DNA of 64,000 bases, taken from the NCBI GenBank assembly GCA_949751835.1, contig CATKHK010000082.1, positions 1 to 64,000 on the forward strand, written 5' to 3'. Numbering within the stretch: the stretch's first letter is position 1; each line of letters opens with the position of its first letter. The notes under the pieces were generated by a model. It did no database searches, was not told the DNA's origin, and was given only the letters and a program-made list of their open reading frames with translations. The translations under genes and the position numbers were made by a program. This stretch comes from Blepharisma japonicum (taxonomy: Eukaryota; Ciliophora; Heterotrichea; Heterotrichida; Blepharismidae). Of this stretch, positions 1-62,695 are shown piece after piece.

Positions 1-653
1 GCCCTTGTTTTTTGCCTTCGTTTACAGCATAAAACTTTCAATAAAATTCGCTTTGATAATTTCCCTAAAATTTCGTAAATTTGTACTGATTTTCTGTATT
101 TTTTGGGGAAAAATAAAACAGCAATCCACAAAAAAAAAGCCCATACACTTAAAATAGCTCTTATGTAGCCTACTATTATATTAGTAATTCAAGCTGCAGT
201 TTCATGGCTATATGCAGGGCAGAGTGATGCATCAATTAATTTAAGAATAGTGTCATAGGTGCTGTATAATGCGCAAAGCAAGGAGATTATATATGGAGAT
301 GAGCGGATATTGCCAACAAATATAAAGAAATAAAACCAATGAGAATATTTCGAGAATGGGCTTTCAACATTAAAAATCCAAGGAATGTCATTCTTTTTAT
401 CCTTCATAGTGATTACTTCATTTAAATGATAGCAAATTGCTTGAAGTTCATAAGTGCCAAGTATTTTGGTGTTTAGATCTAAAATGTAAAGTGCTCCAAT
501 AACCATGGAAAGCTCTGGAATTATGAACTTATCCTCAAGCATATCAAGTACATAAAATATTAGCACTTTAACAAAGCCAAAAACTTTCAGGTGTCTCTTC
601 CAAAATCCTTCTCCTCAGGAATTTAGCAAATCTCTTTCTTTTACATTTTCCAT
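1..653 (-). CDS. Multi-pass membrane protein, tandem family copy A (3' part outside window)
   Basis: Minus-strand gene starting at ATG 651-653 and running off the left edge. The reading frame is open if UGA is Trp (N-terminal WGEGFWKRH motif uses TGA; another TGA follows HETAA near 186). The protein is hydrophobic with an N-terminal cytosolic-looking start, a DKFxxPELSM motif near residue 40 and then long hydrophobic segments, colinear with copies B to E. A 15-nt GT..AG stretch at 402-416 lies exactly where the other copies have intron 1; it has no stop and keeps frame, so it can be read as VITMK or be spliced out. I do not recognise the family; no enzymatic motif is visible. Most likely a channel, transporter or structural membrane protein. 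Gene call sure, function unknown. Confidence 0.75.
402..416 (-). other. Probable stopless 15-nt intron (copy A, intron 1)
   Basis: GTAATCACTATGAAG on the minus strand: 15 nt, GT..AG, A at position 10, at the same alignment position as the stop-containing intron 1 of copies B and C. It contains no stop and is a multiple of three, so translation cannot decide whether it is spliced. Confidence 0.55.
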
Positions 654-772
654 TTTCTCAACTAGAGCAATAAATCCAGAATAATATATAATAAATGCTC
701 ATATTTTAAGACAAATTAAATATAATATTTTAAATAATCATGAAATTGAATTGATTTTTGGTTTAAGAATTA

Positions 773-2407
773 TTATCTATTAAAAAATGGTCTAGAGCTA
801 TCTTGACTTTCACCAATTCCATAAATCTCTTCCTCATTTGGTAAAATTCCGAGTGAAACACAATGAAGAACTATGCACCCATAAAAGCTGTTATATAGTG
901 CATCATAGTTGTCAAAAGGAGATGGCATCACACTTCTATGGGCTTTGAAGCCCACAAAAAATGCAAAAAGCGATCCTAAGATATAACGAGTAAGACCTTT
1001 AACAAAGGCCCCTACAAATCCTATAAAGAAGTTTCATCCATCCCAAAAGCTCAAATATAGTTTATTTTTGATTTTGTTATTCTTTTCTACTAATCTTGGA
1101 AAATAAAATATGCTGTTTAGTAATTACCCTAGTAGTAATGGGACGAATCCAAGCCAAAATCATACAGACTGACTAGCTAGGTAGCCTCTAAGATCAACAA
1201 GAATAGCAAAAAGCACAATTAAGAAGAATATAAAAAATACAAAAAATGAGTAGACAAACTGTAAAAAGAAAGTATTTACAACAAATTGGGCTGATTTACA
1301 ATTACGAATAAAAAACATAGCTGAATGACTTGAGAATTTTCATATCTGCCTCAAAAATGCGCGATCATTGTCTTCAATAATAATCAGCATAAATCGCTTA
1401 TATTTGTAAAGCATTAATAAAATTGAATAAATAACAAATGAATGGCCTATAAAAAATGCTATGACAATAGAAGGATATAAGAATTGCAGAAACAAAATTA
1501 TTTTGTCTTTGGCATCTTTGCTATCATCATCGTCAGAAGAGCTTTGTAAGTTATGATTTCCAAAGGCAAGTATAGTATGATCAGTATTTTGAAAATAAAA
1601 TCCACTATCATCAGATTTCAAATAGTCAATTAGATAAATTAACTGATAGCTATATATCAAAACCTATATAGATATTACTTCAATCGTTGTTGCGAAGGCA
1701 ACAGCATATGATAATCACGCTGATATAGTAATTCTCAAAGGATATTTAAAATTTTTTTCTAATATTTTTCTAGTTTTCCTTCTCTTTTTACATCATAAAA
1801 GTTTTATGAGTAACCATTTTACTATACTCCCAATAATTTCGTAAAGCTGAGCTTTTTTATAATAGCGTTTTGGAAAAATTAATAAAACAAGCCATAAAAA
1901 AGATGACCATACGCTTAAGGCTGCTCTTGCATAGGCTGGAATAATTGTAAATATATAATTAACACCATCTTTTGCAGAAACAGGACAAAATGATGCATCT
2001 ATAACTTTAACTGCAGCATCATACATGTTATATAATGCACAAATTATAGTCAAAGATGTTGGACAAGATTTAATGTTTCCAACAAATAGTAAAAAATAAA
2101 AATAATGCGAAAATAAAGAAAAAGAGCTATTTGCGTTAAAAGGTGTCGGAATTGTACTGTCAACGTTCTAAATAGCAATTACATCATTGAAGCCATAACA
2201 GTAGTCACCAAAACTGTATAATCCTAAAATTTGGGTATTGACATCTAATATGTATGTTGCGCCTAAAACGATTGACAATTCTGGAATTTTAAACTTATCC
2301 TCGATAAGATCAAAGCTATAAAATATGATATATTTTAATCATCAGAGGCATTTAAAGTGGCGCTTTCAGAATGAGTCTCCTCAGGAGTTTAATGGTTCAA
2401 ATTCCAT
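773..2407 (-). CDS. Multi-pass membrane protein, tandem family copy B
   Basis: Complete gene, ATG at 2405-2407, TAA at 773-775. With three 15-nt introns removed it encodes about 529 aa. The N-terminus (EPLNSWGDSFWKRHFK) uses UGA for Trp. Roughly eight or nine hydrophobic segments follow, with basic loops (CKKRKTRK near the middle, KYKRFM after a segment) and a conserved C-terminal block FFVGFKAHRSVMPSPFDNYD that ends shortly before the stop. Closest to copy C. Removing each intron also removes an in-frame TAG or restores continuity, and the joined protein aligns end to end with C, D and E. Family not recognised; I considered bestrophin but its signature residues are not visible. A membrane location is safe; any transport role is inference. 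Confidence 0.8.
1113..1127 (-). other. 15-nt intron (copy B, intron 3)
   Basis: GTAATTACTAAACAG, inserted after the second base of a Gly codon; the same position and phase are used in C, D and E. Confidence 0.85.
1664..1678 (-). other. 15-nt intron (copy B, intron 2)
   Basis: GTAATATCTATATAG; removes an in-frame TAG. A at position 10. Confidence 0.85.
2168..2182 (-). other. 15-nt intron (copy B, intron 1)
   Basis: GTAATTGCTATTTAG; removes an in-frame TAG. A at position 10. Confidence 0.85.
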
Positions 2408-2683
2408 TTCTTACTTAATCTATAAACCTATTTACAAATAAAAATCTAATTTACAGAAAATTAGATAATATTAAAAAATGAATTTTTGTTGGGATCATTA
2501 TAAAATTATTATCAAGACTTTATTTCTTTTGGATTTATTATTTCGTTTAAATCTTTATTGACTAGAATAAGTTATAGTAAATACAAATATTTTGAAAAAA
2601 TTAATCGAAATATTTTTAATCTTAATATCCAATTTTAAAAATCTTTCAATAAATAATTTGGTTTGGATTTCAATTAAGAGACA

Positions 2684-4315
2684 TTATCTATCGAAAAATG
2701 GCCTAGAACTATCTTGAATTTGATCAATTTCATACAATTCTTCTTCACTTGGCAATATTCCAAGTGAAATGCAATGAAGAACTATGCACCCATAAAAGCT
2801 GTTATATAGCGCATCATAATTATCAAAAGGATATGGCATTACACTTCTATGAGCTTTAAAGCCCAAAAAAAAAGCAAACAGAGATCCTAAGATATACCGA
2901 GTAAGGCCTTTAACAAAGGCGCCTAAAAATCCTATAAAGAAATTTCATCCATCTCAAAAGCTCAAATATAGTTTATTTTTTACTTTTTTGTTCTTTTCTA
3001 CTAATCTTGGAAAATAAAATATTCTACTTGGCAACTACCCTAGAATCAATGGTGCAAATCCAAGCCAAAATCAAAGAGATTGGCTAGCTAGATAACCTCT
3101 AAGATCAATAAACATAACAGAAAGTAAAATCAAGAAGAGTATTAAAAAAACAAAAAATGAGTAGAAAAACTGTAAAAATAAAGTATTTACAACAAATTGA
3201 GCTAATTTATAATTACGAATAAAAAACATGGCAGAATGACTAGAGAACTTCCATATTTGCCTCAAAAATGTGCGATCGTTGTCTTCAATAATGACTAACA
3301 TAAATCGCTTGTATTTATAAAGCATTAATAAAATTGAGTAAATAACAAATAAATGACCAATAAAAAATGATATGAAAATACAAGGGTATAAGAATTGTAG
3401 GAACAGAATTATTTTATCTTTTTCTTCTTTGCTAATATCATCAGAAGTGCTTAACAAATTACTATTTCTATAAGCAAGAATAGTATAGTCAGTTTTTTGA
3501 AAATAAAACCCACTATCCTCTGATTTTAATCAGCCAATTAAATAAACAAGCTGATAGGAAAATATCAAAAACTATATAGATGTTACTTCAATAACTGTCG
3601 CTAATGCAAAGGCATAAGATATTCAAGCTGAGATAATCATTCTGAACGGATATTTGAACTTTTTTTCTAATATTTTTTTAGTTTTCTTTATCTTTTTGCA
3701 TAATAAAAATTTTAGAAGTAGCCATTTTACTATATTTCCAATAATTTCGTAAAGCTGTACTTTTTTATGATAGTGCTTTGGAAAAATTAGCAAAATAAAT
3801 CATAAAAACGCAGACCATACACTTAAAATTGCTCTTGAATAGGCTGGAATAATTGTAAAAATAAAATAAACTTCATCTTCTCCAGTAAAATTGCAAAATG
3901 ATGCATCTATAACTTTAACTGAAGCATCATACATATTATATAATGCACAAATAATAGACAAGGACATTGGGCAAGATTTAATGTTCCCAGCAAACAATAA
4001 AAAATAAAACGAATGCGAAAATATAGAAAATGAGCTATTCGCGTTAAGCACTGTTGGAATAATATTGTCAACGTTCTAAATAGCAATTACATCATTGAAA
4101 TCATAGCAATAGTCACCAAAGCTATACAATCCTAAAATTTTTATATTGACCTCTAATATGTATGTTGCACCTAAAATGATTGACAATTCTGGGATTTTAA
4201 ATTTGTCTTCTATTAGATCCAAACTATAAAATACAACATATTTTAATCACCAGAGGTATTTCAAGTGGCGCTTTCAGAATGAGTCTCCTCAGGAATTTAA
4301 TGGCTCGACTTCCAT
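2684..4315 (-). CDS. Multi-pass membrane protein, tandem family copy C
   Basis: Complete copy, ATG at 4313-4315 (EVEPLNSWGDSFWKRH start, Trp partly by UGA), TAA at 2684. About 528 aa after removal of three 15-nt introns at the same positions as in copy B. Near-identical C-terminal block (FKAHRSVMPYPFDNYDALYN) and very similar loops mark B and C as the most recent duplicate pair of the ABC side of the array. It sits 275 bp upstream of B and 85 bp downstream of D, all in the same direction. Function not recognised; eight to nine likely membrane segments. Confidence 0.8.
3024..3038 (-). other. 15-nt intron (copy C, intron 3)
   Basis: GTAGTTGCCAAGTAG; A at position 10, conserved position. Confidence 0.85.
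3572..3586 (-). other. 15-nt intron (copy C, intron 2)
   Basis: GTAACATCTATATAG; carries an in-frame TAG. Confidence 0.85.
4076..4090 (-). other. 15-nt intron (copy C, intron 1)
   Basis: GTAATTGCTATTTAG, identical in sequence to copy B intron 1; carries an in-frame TAG. Confidence 0.85.
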
Positions 4316-4400
4316 TTATTAATTATACTGCATCTATTTTACATGATGATAATTTTAAAAAAAATTGATATCAATTTAAAATAAAAATTTATTATCATTA

Positions 4401-6042
4401 TTATAAAATTATTTTAGCTGGGCCTTTGTCTCTTGTGGCATTTGCTATCTCGAGTAACTCATCATTTGTTGGCATAATTCCTAGTATTATGCAATGGAGA
4501 GTAATAGATCCATAAAAACTTCGATAGAGTGCATCCATTCGATCAAATGGAGGTGCCATATTACTAACGTGAGCTCTAAAGCCGAGAAATAAAGCAATTC
4601 CTGCTCCGAAAAAATATCTCAAAAGACCTACAAGAACTGAGCTGGCAAATCCAGCAAATAAAAATCAACTATCCCAAAGACAAAAATATTTTTTACTTTT
4701 CACTGTTCTATCTTTTTCAACTAGACAAGGAAAATAAAATAGCCTAAATTATTTTTACCCTCAAAATAAAAACACTATTGCTAGTCAAAATTCCAAAGGT
4801 TTATTAATAAAGTATGAAGATACATCAACAAGCATAAAAAATAGCGTGAATACATAAATGAAGCTGCATAGCACGATGGAAAAAGTCATGTGAAGAAAAA
4901 GTGTATTTGTTACAAATTGAGCTATATAGTCGTTACATGGAAAAAATATAGCTAAATAGCTTGGAAATCTTCAAACTCGCTTTAAAAACTCTCTATTTTC
5001 TGGCTCATTGATAATTATCAGCATATATTGTTTGTATCTAAAAAGCATTAGTCCTATAGAATATAATGTGAAAATTGACCCAATAGTAAGAGAGATAGCA
5101 ATGCATGGGAAAATAGGTTCTAAGCATTTTATTACAAGACCGAGAAGGTCAACCCCTTCTGAAACAGTAACAATACGTATTTCTTTTAACAAAAGCATGA
5201 TAAATATGTCATTTCCAGGTTGAGTTATCAAGTAATCCCTATATGATCTTAAATCGTCAGTTAAATAATATATTGAATAGGAAAATAAGATATACTGCAT
5301 ATAAATTACACCACAAGCATCCACAATTGTTGCAAAAATTGAAAAAAACGCTGATGCTCGAATTCTGAATGGTATTTTGAAAGGTGTCATTAAAATTTCC
5401 TTTGTTTTTTTCGCTCTCTTACAAAATAGAATTTTGCATGCAGAATTATTCAAATTAATCAGCTCATTTAATTGAAATTTCTTGCTAAGTCTTTCAGGCA
5501 GCACTACAATAGCAAGCCAGTAAAATAAAGCTCAGCAGTTCATAAAAGATCTATAGACAGCTCAGATAAAAAGCTGGGAATATCACTTATCAGACTCTGT
5601 CGAATGAGTTGGGCAAAAAGATGTATCAATTAATTTGATAATTGTATCATATGCATGAGCAGATGCACATATCACAGTTAGTACAAACGGTGAAGATTTG
5701 AGATTTCCTACAAAGTATAAAATATAAAATCAATTGACATACATTGAAAATGGATTTCTCAAACTTAAGGCTGCTGGCATTTGACTTACAAGTTCCTGAT
5801 TTTCTTATTACTTCTTGATATTCATAGCAAAGCTCTCCTAGGCTAACACTTCCTAGGACATTTAGATTTATATTAATCAAAAATATCCCAGCCAGGATCA
5901 TAGTTAATTCAGGGTTTCTGAATTTATCATCAAGCATGTCAATGCTTTTGAAAAAGCATCACCTTAAAAAGCTAAACACTCCAAAATGCCTTTTTCAAAA
6001 ATCTTCTCCCCATGAATTTAATAGATCTTGATTATTTCTCAT
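4401..6042 (-). CDS. Multi-pass membrane protein, tandem family copy D
   Basis: Complete copy, ATG at 6040-6042, TAA at 4401. The start RNNQDLLNSWGEDFWKRHFG matches the other copies with UGA as Trp. About 531 aa if three introns are removed: a 16-nt intron 1 at the family position, a stopless 15-nt intron 2, and a 15-nt intron 3. The C-terminal block is FRAHVSNMAPPFDRMDALYR, shared with copy E and different from the FKAHRSVMP form of B and C, so D and E form a second subfamily. Hydrophobic throughout, membrane protein of unknown role. If intron 2 is not spliced the protein gains five residues (VIYMQ) inside a membrane segment. Confidence 0.78.
4744..4758 (-). other. 15-nt intron (copy D, intron 3)
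   Basis: GTAAAAATAATTTAG; contains an in-frame stop and splits a Gly codon as in the other copies. Confidence 0.85.
5295..5309 (-). other. Probable stopless 15-nt intron (copy D, intron 2)
   Basis: GTAATTTATATGCAG aligns without a gap to the TAG-containing intron 2 of copies B and C; GT..AG ends and A at position 10. It has no stop and is in frame. Confidence 0.65.
5796..5811 (-). other. 16-nt intron (copy D, intron 1)
   Basis: GTAATAAGAAAATCAG, at the same codon boundary as intron 1 of A to C. Removal of 16 nt is needed to stay in frame with the downstream AALSLRNPFS block. Confidence 0.75.
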
Positions 6043-6526
6043 TTCTTAAAAATATTTTTTATTAAGAATTTTATATATAAATGCTATTTGACACTTATTT
6101 TTGCATTTATAGGTATTTAAAGATTTTTAAATATTTTTGTATTTTGTTGTACATTAGATAAATTGTCTTAAAAAATGATTACAATTCTGGATTTAAGCTA
6201 CCTCTACAATATTAAATCCAAGAATGAAACTCTTCAATTTAATATAGCGCGATTTAACTATTTTCTATCGACCTCCACTACTTAATTTTTTTTGACATAC
6301 TATACTTGAGGTTTACAGATCTTCACGCATCAAAACAATTAGCACATGAAGGCCTTCCAGAAAATGAGTAATGCACTAGTTAATTTCCATCTGCTTAAAA
6401 ATATAAAAGTATTTACAATAGTTTCAATACTGAATTTTATCAGACGTCGATATAATAGATACTAGAATATTAATTTACAGTAAAAGACTGATAGTTTTCA
6501 TAACAGAAATTTCATTTTTAATTCAA
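6043..6526. other. Intergenic spacer in the membrane-protein array
   Basis: AT-rich spacer between copy E (stop at 6527) and copy D (start at 6042), clearly longer than the other spacers of the array. I see no open frame with a start, no tRNA-like or repeat structure. Confidence 0.5.
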
Positions 6527-8165
6527 TTAGAGAATTATTTTAGCAGGACCTTTGTCTCTTGTGGCATTTGCTATCTCGAGTAACTCCTCTTTCGTTGGCA
6601 TAATTCCTAGAATAATGCAATGCAGAGTAATAGACCCATAAAAACTCCGATAAAGGGCATCCAATCTATCAAATGGAGGTGCCATATTACTAACGTGAGC
6701 TCTAAAGCCGAGAAATAAAGCAATTCCTGCTCCGAAATAATATCTGAAGATGCCAATTACCAATGAGCTTGTATATCCAGCAAATAAAAATCAGCTATCT
6801 CAGATACAAAAATACATTTTATTTTTCACTGTCATGTCTTTTTCTACTAAATGAGGAAAATAAATCAGCCTGTATTAGTTTTACCCTCAAAATAAAAATA
6901 CTATAGCAAGTCAAAACTGTAAAGGTTTACTTATAATATATGCATAAAGATCGACAAACATAAAAAATATAGTAAATGAATAAATAAAACTTGATAATAC
7001 AAAAGAAAAAGTCATGTGAAGGAAAGCTGTATTCATAACAAATTGAGCTAAATACTGGATACATGGGAAAAATATAGCTAAATAGCTTGGAAATCTTCAA
7101 ACTCGCTTTAAAAACTCTCTGTTTTCTGGTTCATTGACAATTATGAGCATATATTGTTTGTATCTAAAAAGCATTAGCCCTACAGAATATAATGAGAAAA
7201 TTGATCCAATGAAAAGAGAGATAGCAACGCATGGGAAAATAGGCTTTAAGAATCTTATTATAATGCTAAGTAGATCAATTCCTTCTGAAACTGTAACAAT
7301 GTATGTTTCTTGTAAATTCAGTATGATAAATGTGTCATTTCCAGGTTGAATCATTAAGTAATCTCTATAGGATATTAAATCATCAATTAAGTAATAAATT
7401 GAGTAAGAAAATAATGTATACTGTATATATATTACAACACAGACATCCACAAATGTTGCAAAAATAGAAAAAACAGCTGATGCTCGAATTCTAAATGGTA
7501 TTTTAAAAGGTGTCATCAAAATTTCTTTTGTTTTCTTCACTCTATTTCAGAATAGAATTTTACACACAATATGATTTAAGTTAAGCAGCCCACTTAATTG
7601 AAATTTCTTTCTATGTCTTTCAGGCAATATTACAATAGCAAGTCAATACAATAAAGCTCAGCAGTTCATAAAAGATCTATAGACAGCAAAAAGAAAAAAC
7701 CCATTAAATCTTCCAGAATCTAAAGAATGAGCTGGACACAAAGATGTATCAATCAATTTGATAATCGTATCATATGCATGGGCTGATGCACACATCACAG
7801 TTAATATAAACGGTGAAGATTTGAGATTCCCAACAAAAAATAAAATATAAAATCAGTTCACATACATTGAAAATGGGTTCCTCAAATTTAAGGCTGCTGG
7901 CAATTGGCTTACGAGTTCCTGAATTTCTTATTACTTCTTGATATTGATAACAGATCTCTCCTAAATCAACACTGCCTAGGACATTTAGATTTACATTAAG
8001 CAAAAATATCCCAGCCAGGATCATAGTTAATTCTGGATTTTTGAATTTATCATCAAGCATATCAATGCTTTTGAAAAAGCATCATCTTAAAAAGTTAAAC
8101 ACCCCAAAATGCTTTTTTCAAAAATCTTCTCCTCATGCATTTAATAGATCCTGTTTATTTTTCAT
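6527..8165 (-). CDS. Multi-pass membrane protein, tandem family copy E
   Basis: Complete copy, ATG at 8163-8165, TAA at 6527. About 530 aa after removing a 16-nt intron 1, a stopless 15-nt intron 2 and a 15-nt intron 3. It starts KNKQDLLNAWGEDFWKKHFG (Trp by UGA) and ends with the FRAHVSNMAPPFDRLDALYR block, so it pairs with copy D. Its ATG is only 42 bp from the stop of the upstream Kelch gene on the same strand. Family unknown; multiple hydrophobic segments. Confidence 0.78.
6870..6884 (-). other. 15-nt intron (copy E, intron 3)
   Basis: GTAAAACTAATACAG, conserved position and phase. Confidence 0.85.
7421..7435 (-). other. Probable stopless 15-nt intron (copy E, intron 2)
   Basis: GTAATATATATACAG, conserved position, A at position 10; no stop, in frame. 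Confidence 0.65.
7919..7934 (-). other. 16-nt intron (copy E, intron 1)
   Basis: GTAATAAGAAATTCAG, conserved position, 16 nt as in copy D. Confidence 0.75.
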
Positions 8166-23109: not shown

Positions 23110-24015
23110 ATGGATCAGGAAAGGGAGCAATTTAATATGATGATAGAAGATACTAGAGACACAGAATTAAAAGTATTTTTTTTATCAAAATTAGTACACA
23201 GATATGCAAATTTCAAACACAAATGTCCGCCAAGGAGAAAAGCGTTCCAACTAAGCTTGAATATTTTTCATGATACTAAAACAAACGATTATGTCCAATT
23301 TTCTCCTTCCTCTACTTCAACTCTTGCAGAAAGAGAGGACGCTGAATCTTTTATTATAGAGCCTTCAACAGCAACACACTCGTCAGGGCTTTCTTCAATC
23401 AGAAGTTTCACTTCTATTGAAGAGCAATGGCTAGGCCGGAATAAAACTTGTATGTTCTACTTAGATACAAATGAAGAATACGAAATAATCCGGCAGAATT
23501 TCTTACATCTATATTTCACACACAAGTCCAATCATGGATCAAGAATTTATAAAAACAACCCTGAAGTGCATATATCAAATATAATTCAACACTTTTTAGA
23601 CTGTTTTATTACCACTCATAATCTATTAAACATTTTGTTGGCCCCTCTCAAAGGCAAAGAATGGGTTGATTTAAAAAGTTTTGTCCAATCTTTTGAAGCT
23701 ATTCAGCAAATAGTCTTTGATAAATCATCTTTTTTCTATAAGGAACCAGGCGCTGATTTTAAAAAGAACATGACAATGCAAAAACTGCTCTGTAATTTCT
23801 AATTAGTTTTCTTCAGAATGGTAGAAAATTATAATGAAGGAGAATTGGGAAGAGCTCAGCTACAAACAGTAATGAGCATGGCTTTGAAAAAAAAGAAAAA
23901 TCAATCTGAACAATCTAGGCTTGTGGCATGGACACTGGAAAAAGCTAAGATATTATCTGGAAAAAGAAAAGAATACATTACATTTGAAGAGTTTTATAAG
24001 ATTCTTAAAAACTAA
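23110..24015 (+). CDS. Unknown protein with one 15-nt intron
   Basis: 296 aa after splicing 23792-23806. Contains a Ser/Thr-rich loop (about residues 65-105), then mixed helices, and ends with helical blocks LGRAQLQTVMSMALKKKK and YITFEEFYKILKN, whose spacing recalls a degenerate EF-hand pair without calcium ligands I can trust. No membrane segments. Tail to tail with the DENN gene, 65 bp apart. Confidence 0.6.
23792..23806 (+). other. 15-nt intron
   Basis: GTAATTTCTAATTAG; contains an in-frame TAA and joins two open frames; A at position 10. Confidence 0.8.
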
Positions 24016-27508: not shown

Positions 27509-29413
27509 ATGTTTTCTTCAGAAGAAATTGCAAGCCAATTATCAACTATCAAGAAAAGCAATTTATCACTAGCTGATGCTCTTCGAGAAATAGAGCTTGC
27601 AAAACAATCGTTTGAAAAAATCAGTTTCCTTGAAAATACCATAAATCTTCAAGATTTGACATTGCACGAGATTAAAAATCAAATGCAAAGATGCATTAGT
27701 ACAAACTTTTTCAATGCAAAGTATGATGATCTTATGCTAAAAATTGATCAAATAGTCAAATCAAAATTTGATGAGTTTTCTTTGAAATTTTTTAGCACCC
27801 TTAATGAAAAACTTAGCATTTCAGATTCTGAAGCCTTACTCAAGAAAAAAGTAAATTATGTTGATTACAATGCCTTATCAAAGAAATTTGAAGTCATTAA
27901 AAATATTCTTGAAAAGCACATATACTCAGACTTTGAAGCTTTAAAAATAAAAGTCAAAATGAACTTAAGCAAGATTGAAAATCAAAATAATCAGCACGTA
28001 AACACAAATATCCCATCTGAAGAAATTGATAAATTAAACGAAAGGATTAAATTATTGGAAATTCAAGTCCAAAGTATGATGGGAGAAGAAGAAATGCTTG
28101 ATGAAAGCTATGATAGTCAGGAGGATTTAGAAATAATGCTTGGCAATTTAGAAAAAGCAATTTTAAGCGAGCATTCAGCATCTATAGGATTTGAAACTAG
28201 CACAAATGAAACTCATCAAATGCCTTTTGCATTAAACAGCAACTCTCCTGATGTTTCTAAAGCAATGCTAGCAGAAGGCCTTTCTCCAAGATATTCCAGA
28301 CAAAGATCTCGATCTTCAGATAAAAGACTAAACGGTGGACTTGTGCAGCAAATTGGTAAAAAATTTGGAATAATTCAAAGGGAGCTTGAAATAAATAAAT
28401 TCAAAATTGACGAAATTCTCAAAAAATCAAACAATTATGAAACCACAATAAAAGATGCAGATTTACTGATGACGAAACTAATGGACAAGCAGCTTGAAAT
28501 TCAAGCTAAATCAGAACTTATTGAAAAAAATGTGATTAAAGCTATAAATACTCCAACAGCAATGCAGTATGATAAAGATATAGAAATGATAAGCTCAAAT
28601 TCAAAAGAATTGTACAGTCAGATGAAGATAGACCTTGAAGCTAAAAATAACAGACTTTACACCATTGAAACTTGAATAGAAAAGATTGTAGATGATCTAA
28701 ATCAAATGAAAGCTCTTCACAGAGATAAAATCAATGAAATTGTTAAATGTATGCATGACTTGAGAATTGATAATAACCAAACTAAAATAGAAGTCAATAA
28801 ATCATTAGAATCAGTAAAAATCTTTGAAGATAGTTTACAGGAGAAAATAGATAAACTGAACGAAGATCTTGATGAGCTTAAAGGTCCTCTTATCGATGTG
28901 ATTTCAAATCAGGAGAGACAAAATCATATACTCTCGGTAGAGATTAATAGGCAGCAAGAAATAGGAAGGCGGCAAGAAATAAGTAGAAGTTATGTTGGTA
29001 GCAGTCTGGATTTTCAAAGAACTTATTCTTCAATGACTTCGCAGGAAAACAGTCCTATTAAAGAGACTGCTCAGCTAATTTCAGAAACGCTAAAACCTAC
29101 ATCAGCAAGAATACAAAGTGCATCTCCTAGAAGTGCGACTAGGGTTCAGAGTGCATCTCCTAGTCTATCAGCCAAAAGCAGATGCTATCAAAGAAAGAAA
29201 TTTTCTCAGATAGGTGCAGGCCAAATAAAATTAGATGAAAATTGGCTGAGTCTTTTTCCAGACGGAGTACAGATTCAGCTTCCAAGGGTTTCTATTCCAA
29301 ATAGCAAGGGATCAGAATCTCAAACAAAAGAAACAAATAATGCAGAAAAGCAAAAAAAAGCTCGGAAGCTTGAAATAAAATCAAAAATCAGATTAAATAC
29401 ATCTTTACTGTAA
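27509..29413 (+). CDS. Long coiled-coil protein, unknown
   Basis: 634 aa with a UGA Trp near 28675. Heptad-like helices cover residues 1-200 and 275-490. A Ser/Arg-rich stretch (SPRYSRQRSRSSDKRLNGG) lies near residue 265, and the tail carries a short repeat SARIQSASPRSATRVQSASP. Looks structural, for instance cytoskeletal or basal-body related, but no family is recognised. Confidence 0.65.
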
Positions 29414-61705: not shown

Positions 61706-62695
61706 TTACATAAATTTTGATTTTTTATGCGGATCTCCAGCGAAACTTGAGGTATCTTTGTCACAAACTGGGAAAATTGTGCTTGCAGCTCTGCTGAATT
61801 TTGGAGATGGAGAAAAAATCGATCCAAAAGTTCTAGGAGTTGGCAACCTTTGGTCTGATAGTCTTCTTGATCTTTCTCTTGAGCTTCGATTTAGCTTTGC
61901 TGCTAATTTCATCATTAGTTCTTCTTTTTCTGAAGGATCTTGCATCTATATAAAATTTACTCTAAATCTTTTGCTATTCATTATAAGTCCATCAGGCTCT
62001 TTTGATCTTTTCTCAATATCAGGAGTTTCGATTTCTTGATAAGTTGGGATTTCAGGGAATTTTTCACTTGGTGTTTGCAGTTCTATTAATAATTCTGGAG
62101 GAATTCTTGTGTTTTCTTTAATGATTTCTTTTGGCTTGCCTTTGAAGTCCTTGCTGGCAGCAAGAGTTGATAATGGTAAATTAGGCCAAGCTGAAATGCT
62201 TTTTAGCTCTTCTTTTGTATTTGATGATGTAATTGACTGTATATTTCTTACCGCTTGAGTTTGATTTACTATAGTTTTTAGCCTGGTGTCTTCTTGAGTT
62301 ACACTATCAATTCAGCTGTATTTTTCTGCCAACCTTTTTCTATGCTTCTCTTGGATTTCTTCAAATGAAACATTATCTTCGCTTGAATATTTTACCAAAA
62401 ATTCATCAAGTGTCTGGTCTGCTTTTCCTTGTGGGAATTTTGAAGTTGCATGTGTGTCTGGGGTCGCTAGCACACTACTGTTTTCTTCAGTTCTTTGTAA
62501 TTCATCTCTTGCGATTTGGATTTGTAGTGGATCTCCTAATTCTTCAGCATCAAACAGTCTTTTTAAAGCTAGAAGTTTCTTTTTGTCAGGGAAATAGTCT
62601 CTCTCAATAATCGAACTAATAGACGATAAATATTCGTCTTCTTCAAGCACCTCTTTTTTGGGCCTTTTTTTAGGAGGAATAAAGGAATCGCTCAT
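61706..62695 (-). CDS. ESS2: Splicing-associated protein ESS2/DGCR14
   Basis: 324 aa after splicing a 15-nt intron and using one UGA Trp. KEVLEEDEYLSSISSIIERD followed by YFPDKKKLLAL, and LDEFLVKYSSEDNVSFEEIQ, are ESS2 hallmarks; LPTPRTFGSIFSP marks the C-terminus. ESS2 associates with the spliceosome C complex, and a splicing factor is fitting in a genome with 15-nt introns. The Trp after the TYS block is read from UGA at a family Trp. Confidence 0.9.
61946..61960 (-). other. 15-nt intron in ESS2
   Basis: GTAAATTTTATATAG; removes the in-frame TAG that separates the two halves; A at position 10. Confidence 0.88.

Follow-up and report, generated by a model that had tools for sequence, protein, structure and literature searches.

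Tandem Gene Copies and Their Introns

The DNA analysed here (the window, 64,000 nt) forms the beginning of contig C82 in a genome of 45.2 Mb and 224 contigs, and opens with a tandem array of related genes on the minus strand, ordered E, D, C, B, A, in which three 15-nt segments without stop codons occupy places where sister copies carry stop-bearing introns. Copies E (6527–8165), D (4401–6042), C (2684–4315), and B (773–2407) encode proteins of 530, 531, 528, and 529 amino acids, respectively, when spliced at three conserved positions (sites 1 to 3). Only the 5′ part of copy A (1–653) lies in the window; the assembly breaks inside this gene, with C82 starting and contig C83 (locus L014) ending in it and sharing an identical overlap of 127 nt, and the remainder is on C83. 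A genome search, which scores best candidates only and gave nine matches in all, identified a sixth copy, F, on contig C30, outside the window. Copies A and F encode 534 amino acids each if a further candidate intron (site 4, described below) is kept. An earlier note on this DNA had reported five copies in the window that splicing brings to about 530 amino acids, which agrees with these gene structures, but it had missed the sixth copy and the 15-mer that all copies share at site 4. The protein of copy E, the only copy searched, matched no Pfam family at E ≤ 1.

The three stop-free 15-mers are GTAATCACTATGAAG at site 1 of copy A (402–416; VITMK if translated), GTAATTTATATGCAG at site 2 of copy D (5295–5309; VIYMQ), and GTAATATATATACAG at site 2 of copy E (7421–7435; VIYIQ), hereafter A1, D2, and E2. 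All are in phase 0 on the minus strand, are 15 nt long, start with a GTAA donor and end in AG, have A at base 10, and stand in frame without TAA or TAG; their sequence, frame, strand, and coordinates are those that the earlier note had given. The alignment with stop-bearing introns of sister copies that it had proposed also holds, with such introns present in B, C, and F at site 1 and in A, B, and C at site 2. At site 1, copies B (2168–2182) and C (4076–4090) both carry GTAATTGCTATTTAG with an in-frame TAG, and copy F carries the stop-bearing intron GTAGTTTATATTTAG on C30; the introns of copies D (5796–5811; GTAATAAGAAAATCAG, which would shift the frame if kept) and E (7919–7934; GTAATAAGAAATTCAG) are 16 nt long rather than 15. 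At site 2, copies B (1664–1678) and C (3572–3586) have an in-frame TAG and copy A has the stop-bearing intron GTATAAATTATTTAG on C83; copy F has no 15-mer there. The site 3 introns are in phase 2, with a TAA arising from GTAA in copies B (1113–1127), D (4744–4758), and E (6870–6884) and a TAG arising from GTAG in copy C (3024–3038); site 3 of copy F is stop-free because its donor is GTAT.

Homology and Intron-Profile Evidence for A1, D2, and E2

Copy F aligns without a gap at site 2 with the spliced forms of copies A to E; if VIYMQ and VIYIQ were kept, copies D and E would thus carry five residues with no counterpart in A, B, C, and F, and copy A, if VITMK were kept, would differ from the five other copies. 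Scores against a jackknifed family hidden Markov model (HMM), built in each case from the other copies and with D and E held out together, rose on removal of the 15-mers, by 10.4 bits for A1, 4.6 bits for D2, and 3.8 bits for E2, and by 10.5 bits for site 3 of copy F. As introns, A1, D2, and E2 had log-likelihood ratios (LLR) of 8.7, 9.1, and 12.0, which correspond to the 14th, 41st, and 57th percentiles among 44 stop-bearing introns of the same genome.

These comparisons suggest, with a probability of about 0.87, that A1, D2, and E2 are spliceosomal introns of the kind ordinary for a heterotrich ciliate, removed like their stop-bearing counterparts in the sister copies. Each 15-mer has the length and the GT and AG ends of such introns and an A at base 10 that would be the branch point, a role assigned by analogy with Stentor, and would be removed in the normal course of splicing; that this takes place in the RNA, and constantly, is what we infer from the DNA. 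A stop is missing only because a length of 15 nt is divisible by three, so that the presence of a stop depends on phase and sequence. A phase 2 intron would acquire a TAA whenever it starts with GTAA, a phase 0 intron would mostly require T at base 13 (giving TAG), and a phase 1 intron would need a chance internal TAA or TAG; this dependence would leave the frame open in a sizeable minority of introns, including site 4 in every copy of the family. We therefore rejected the idea that stop-free introns necessarily form a class of their own, since phase and a few bases account for their stop content and a separate class is not needed.

Two alternatives accept an intron origin for the 15-mers and differ in what becomes of them. 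In copies A, D, and E, ancestral introns may have undergone exonisation, with splicing lost after the stop had gone and the five residues now kept; the open frames and the position of both D/E differences at site 2, which fall on third codon positions, would fit such a history. It is nevertheless improbable, as D2, E2, and A1 have retained GTAA, A at base 10, and AG, the five site 2 residues are absent from F and from A, B, and C (where they are spliced), removal improves the fit to the family, and strong matches to the intron motif are in excess at 15 nt (see below). Alternatively, as the earlier note had suggested in proposing variable retention, splicing may be regulated or incomplete, with forms with and without the five residues both made; retention keeps the frame, both forms would be translatable, and the motifs of A1 and of site 4 in copy E are weak. 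The sequence carries no sign of regulation and E2 and D2 are average among the stop-bearing introns, which makes this explanation just as improbable as exonisation.

Stop-Free 15-nt Introns Elsewhere in the Genome

A gene model with explicit 15- and 16-nt introns, run on 264 kb (the window and C1:1-200000), yielded 192 genes with 60 introns of 15 nt, of which 44 had an in-frame stop and 16 (six of them inside the array) were stop-free, and seven introns of 16 nt. Decoy spacings of 12, 18, 21, 24, and 27 nt gave 6, 5, 3, 3, and 2 stop-free calls, as compared to 16 at 15 nt. Three of the 192 genes, copy A among them, lacked a start or stop and were excluded from counts, leaving 189 complete genes. 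The 204 kb of coding sequence of these genes, from which no introns but those required by the frame had been removed, was scanned for GTA..A..AG matches at 15 nt and at 44 spacings of 17–60 nt. Strong matches (LLR > 7) numbered 14 at 15 nt, against a mean of 2.45 and a maximum of 7 at the other spacings, the longer of which are slightly handicapped in the LLR score; about 11–12 strong 15-nt matches are thus in excess, and the false-call rate is near 18%. The 15 spacings divisible by three gave similar means (2.5 strong and 36.7 weak matches). A stricter motif, GTAA..[TC]AG, occurred 12 times at 15 nt and 2, 3, 3, 2, and 3 times at spacings of 18–30 nt; its 6 and 13 occurrences at 12 and 9 nt reflect motif ends that crowd each other. 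Genome-wide, the strong motif GTAATNNNTATN followed by TAG was found 673 times (reversed control, 95) and followed by CAG 278 times (reversed control, 27); at a spacing of 18 nt, both endings together gave 82 matches (own reversed control, 132).

Weak matches showed the opposite pattern, with 22 at 15 nt versus a mean of 39.7 (SD 8.0, minimum 25), fewer than at any of the 44 spacings, which gives a hint that coding sequence avoids weak intron mimics; this shortage depends on the split at LLR 7, as the total number of matches at 15 nt is not unusual.

Pfam scores with the 15-mer kept and removed were compared for five stop-free candidates, which belong to four conserved genes. Removal of two stop-free 15-mers from a mitochondrial carrier gene raised the Mito_carr score from 175.7 to 187.5 and then to 199.2 bits (+11.8 and +11.7); the two sites were decided by these Pfam scores, as the PDB alignments shown did not settle them. 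The first of the two interrupts PMDVIKQR, which fits the carrier signature PxDxxK/R. In a kelch gene, removal of one stop-free 15-mer raised eight of the nine listed families, including PF24681 (137.9 to 145.4 bits, +7.5) and Kelch_1 (48.6 to 59.3), and lowered NANM (27.8 to 25.5). Recurrence of stop-free 15-nt introns outside the array is thus supported by three candidates, two in the carrier and one in the kelch protein. A stop-free candidate in a Sec24 gene on C1 lies outside the Pfam domains; against PDB, splicing lowered the Sec24A score from 243.1 to 241.5 bits and raised weak Sec23 matches from 34.1 to 37.8 and from 23.4 to 28.1 bits.

The fourth gene, chorismate synthase (L025:491-1693, C1:70491-71693), contains a coding 15-mer, GTATCTACTATAAAG (VSTIK), that mimics an intron; its removal dropped the Pfam score from 418.8 to 399.5 bits (−19.3), a loss that identifies the called 15-mer as coding. 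The assumption that all gene-model calls are introns was therefore rejected. This mimic offers a natural test of spliceosomal avoidance of look-alikes.

Twenty further carriers were hand-picked from 150 domain matches, as higher-scoring matches and some with stops inside, and hence are no fair sample; among them, splicing raised the score for seven of eight stop-bearing introns. Three more stop-free candidates in the window (23450–23464, 62237–62251, and 28898–28912) are gene-model calls only. The window gene at 23110–24015 is related to a gene on C1 (C1:134236-135084, L031), and, as judged by eye, removal of a stop-free 15-mer from the latter gives FARMLFYFRFVE, which aligns with KLLFFFRMVE of the former.

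Several observations weigh against the reading of A1, D2, and E2 as introns. A1 is weak as an intron, given its low percentile, the gains on removal of D2 and E2 are modest, and coding sequence would also give third-position differences like the two that separate them. The gene model makes wrong calls, as in chorismate synthase; none of 10 stop-free candidates in the 20 hand-picked carriers, one gene-model call included, gained more than 0.2 bits; and loose GTA..A..AG matches are not in excess at a spacing of 15 nt (36 versus a mean of 42.2). The last figure and the chorismate synthase mimic would be expected if A1, D2, and E2 were coding sequence that fits a short motif by chance. This explanation retains next to no probability, since chance would have to produce both an exact coincidence with the stop-bearing introns of paralogues and the surplus of strong 15-nt matches.

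A Stop-Free Site in All Copies

Among the 1476 ungapped 15-nt segments of a codon alignment, one reads GT-N7-A-N3-AG in all six copies. This site 4 is in phase 1 and stop-free, and corresponds to the candidate introns GTAATTGTAAATCAG in copy B (1291–1305; called by the gene model; LLR 9.9), GTAATTATAAATTAG in copy C (3202–3216; LLR 10.7), and GTAACGACTATATAG in copy D (4922–4936; LLR 10.4), and to the candidate GTATCCAGTATTTAG in copy E (7048–7062; LLR 3.5), which has a weak donor, GTATCC, and is absent from the gene-model calls; all four are on the minus strand. The invariant columns of site 4 are exactly 1, 2, 3, 10, 14, and 15, which are the intron-consensus columns; two of them are third codon positions, only 8% of which are invariant across the alignment. 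For the pairs B/C and D/E, 1 of 6 differences within the 15-mer fell on codon position 3, compared to 270 of 475 in exons (binomial p = 0.058). Removal of site 4 joins FFP-A-QF, FFI-P-QF, FFP-S-QF, or FFP-S-EF. This pattern suggests that site 4 is probably an intron without a stop in all six copies. In copy E the site scores below all 44 stop-bearing introns and lies outside the intron profile of this genome; it may have decayed there, an intron turning into coding sequence, and its poor donor is how a loss by exonisation could look.

Share of Stop-Free Introns and Selection for Stops

By the gene model, 16 of 60 15-nt introns were stop-free, or about 13 of 57 after correction for false calls; outside the array, with the chorismate synthase call removed, the share was 9 of 45, and would be lower with other false calls taken into account. 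A second estimate came from a motif sample that comprised the 24 TAG and 21 CAG places at the head of the listing and overlapped the 264 kb slightly (four TAG places and one CAG place); 12 of its 45 loci could not be resolved. The 18 resolved TAG introns were distributed over phases 0, 1, and 2 as 9, 4, and 5, and the 15 CAG introns as 3, 6, and 6. Thirteen of the 33 were stop-free, including two CAG cases that score alike spliced or kept; weighting by genome-wide counts gave about a third stop-free, a share that is somewhat too high, as one kind of stop is precluded by the T at base 11 of the motif. The stop-free share of the 15-nt introns is thus roughly between a fifth and a third.

In the gene-model introns outside the array together with those of the carriers, with the chorismate synthase call removed from the phase table, T at base 13 was present in 27 of 30 phase 0 introns versus 16 of 23 in the other phases (two-sided p = 0.08); this set is biased against stop-free calls, as stop-free introns are harder to call. 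The same comparison in the motif sample gave an odds ratio of 4 (p = 0.15). Both sets point towards selection for a stop, and neither result is significant.

Genetic Code, Telomeres, and Surveillance Factors

Copies B to E are broken under the standard genetic code and open when TGA is read as tryptophan, and copies D and E have TGA at positions where copy C has TGG (KRVW/RQIW). The GC content is 33% in the window and in 200 kb of C1. A genome-wide search for three repeats of CCCTAACA gave 168 matches, as compared to none for the reversed control; among the 100 matches listed, those at low coordinates begin at most 334 bases from the start of a contig and those on C4 extend to the end of that contig, a placement at or near contig ends that applies to contigs whose end is known. 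On the basis of UGA coding for tryptophan, 15- and 16-nt introns, and CCCTAACA telomeres, the source is taken as Blepharisma or a close relative. The genome also encodes two UPF1-type and one UPF2 domain matches; the two UPF1-type zinc-binding domains are separate (C32:96935-97393, 206.3 bits; C54:277779-278231, 133.8 bits), which suggests two UPF1-like helicases.

Relation to Known Introns and Implications

Introns of mainly 15 and 16 bp, UGA as a tryptophan codon, an AT-rich, gene-dense genome, and telomeres that are permutations of CCCTAACA have been described for Blepharisma stoltei (PMC9942806). The genome studied here shares the tiny introns, this codon, and the telomeres, but the assembly described for that species has 41 Mb, unlike the 45.2 Mb in 224 contigs found here (PMC9942806). 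In Stentor coeruleus, 92.81% of introns are 15 nt long, most with the branch A at base 10, a GUA start, and AU-rich sequence (PMC9505925); the introns described here resemble them in length (15 or 16 nt) and in the A at base 10, whereas Stentor coeruleus uses the standard code. Heterotrich introns have a length of 15 bp, and hence a multiple of three (3n), in about 95% of cases (PMC11441545). In Paramecium and other ciliates, retained 3n introns are flagged to nonsense-mediated decay only when they contain an in-frame stop, and short introns of this length class are for the most part under-represented there and show an enrichment of stops, with the exception of ultra-short Tetrahymena introns (PMC5014332); by contrast, a sizeable minority of the 15-nt introns in the present genome are stop-free.

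The passages of the Blepharisma stoltei paper surveyed, which do not extend to its supplementary section on tiny introns, contain nothing on stop-free introns (PMC9942806), and the main text of the Stentor paper contains none of the terms “in-frame”, “stop codon”, or “nonsense” (PMC9505925). In the titles, starts of abstracts, and passages surveyed, with supplements outside this scope, stop-free 15-nt introns were not found as a topic. They thus represent an expected subset of known introns, little described as far as this literature shows.

The earlier note had also suggested that such introns are systematically invisible. This is correct where gene finders depend on open frames, but it does not extend to the published Blepharisma annotation: its authors found tiny introns hard to model and took introns from mapped RNA-seq reads (PMC9942856; Intronarrator is named in PMC9942806), and expressed stop-free introns should therefore appear in that annotation. 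Homology-based annotation of heterotrichs should permit stop-free 15-nt introns, in particular in weakly expressed genes with thin RNA-seq support.

The three 15-mers with which this analysis began are a sound observation, and the broader point about a frame-keeping intron length is an RNA-seq question of value. Retention of a stop-free 3n intron would escape both nonsense-mediated decay and annotation based on open reading frames. It is possible, although somewhat doubtful, that in this organism, with nearly all introns of one frame-keeping length and between a fifth and a third of them without a stop, translation-linked surveillance is blind to the retention of these introns despite the presence of UPF1 and UPF2 domains; splicing accuracy would then rest on the motif itself, and coding sequence would be purged of intron-like 15-mers. 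A genome in which nearly all introns have 15 nt may thus serve as a natural test of splicing accuracy in relation to in-frame stops and of the avoidance of intron mimics in coding sequence.

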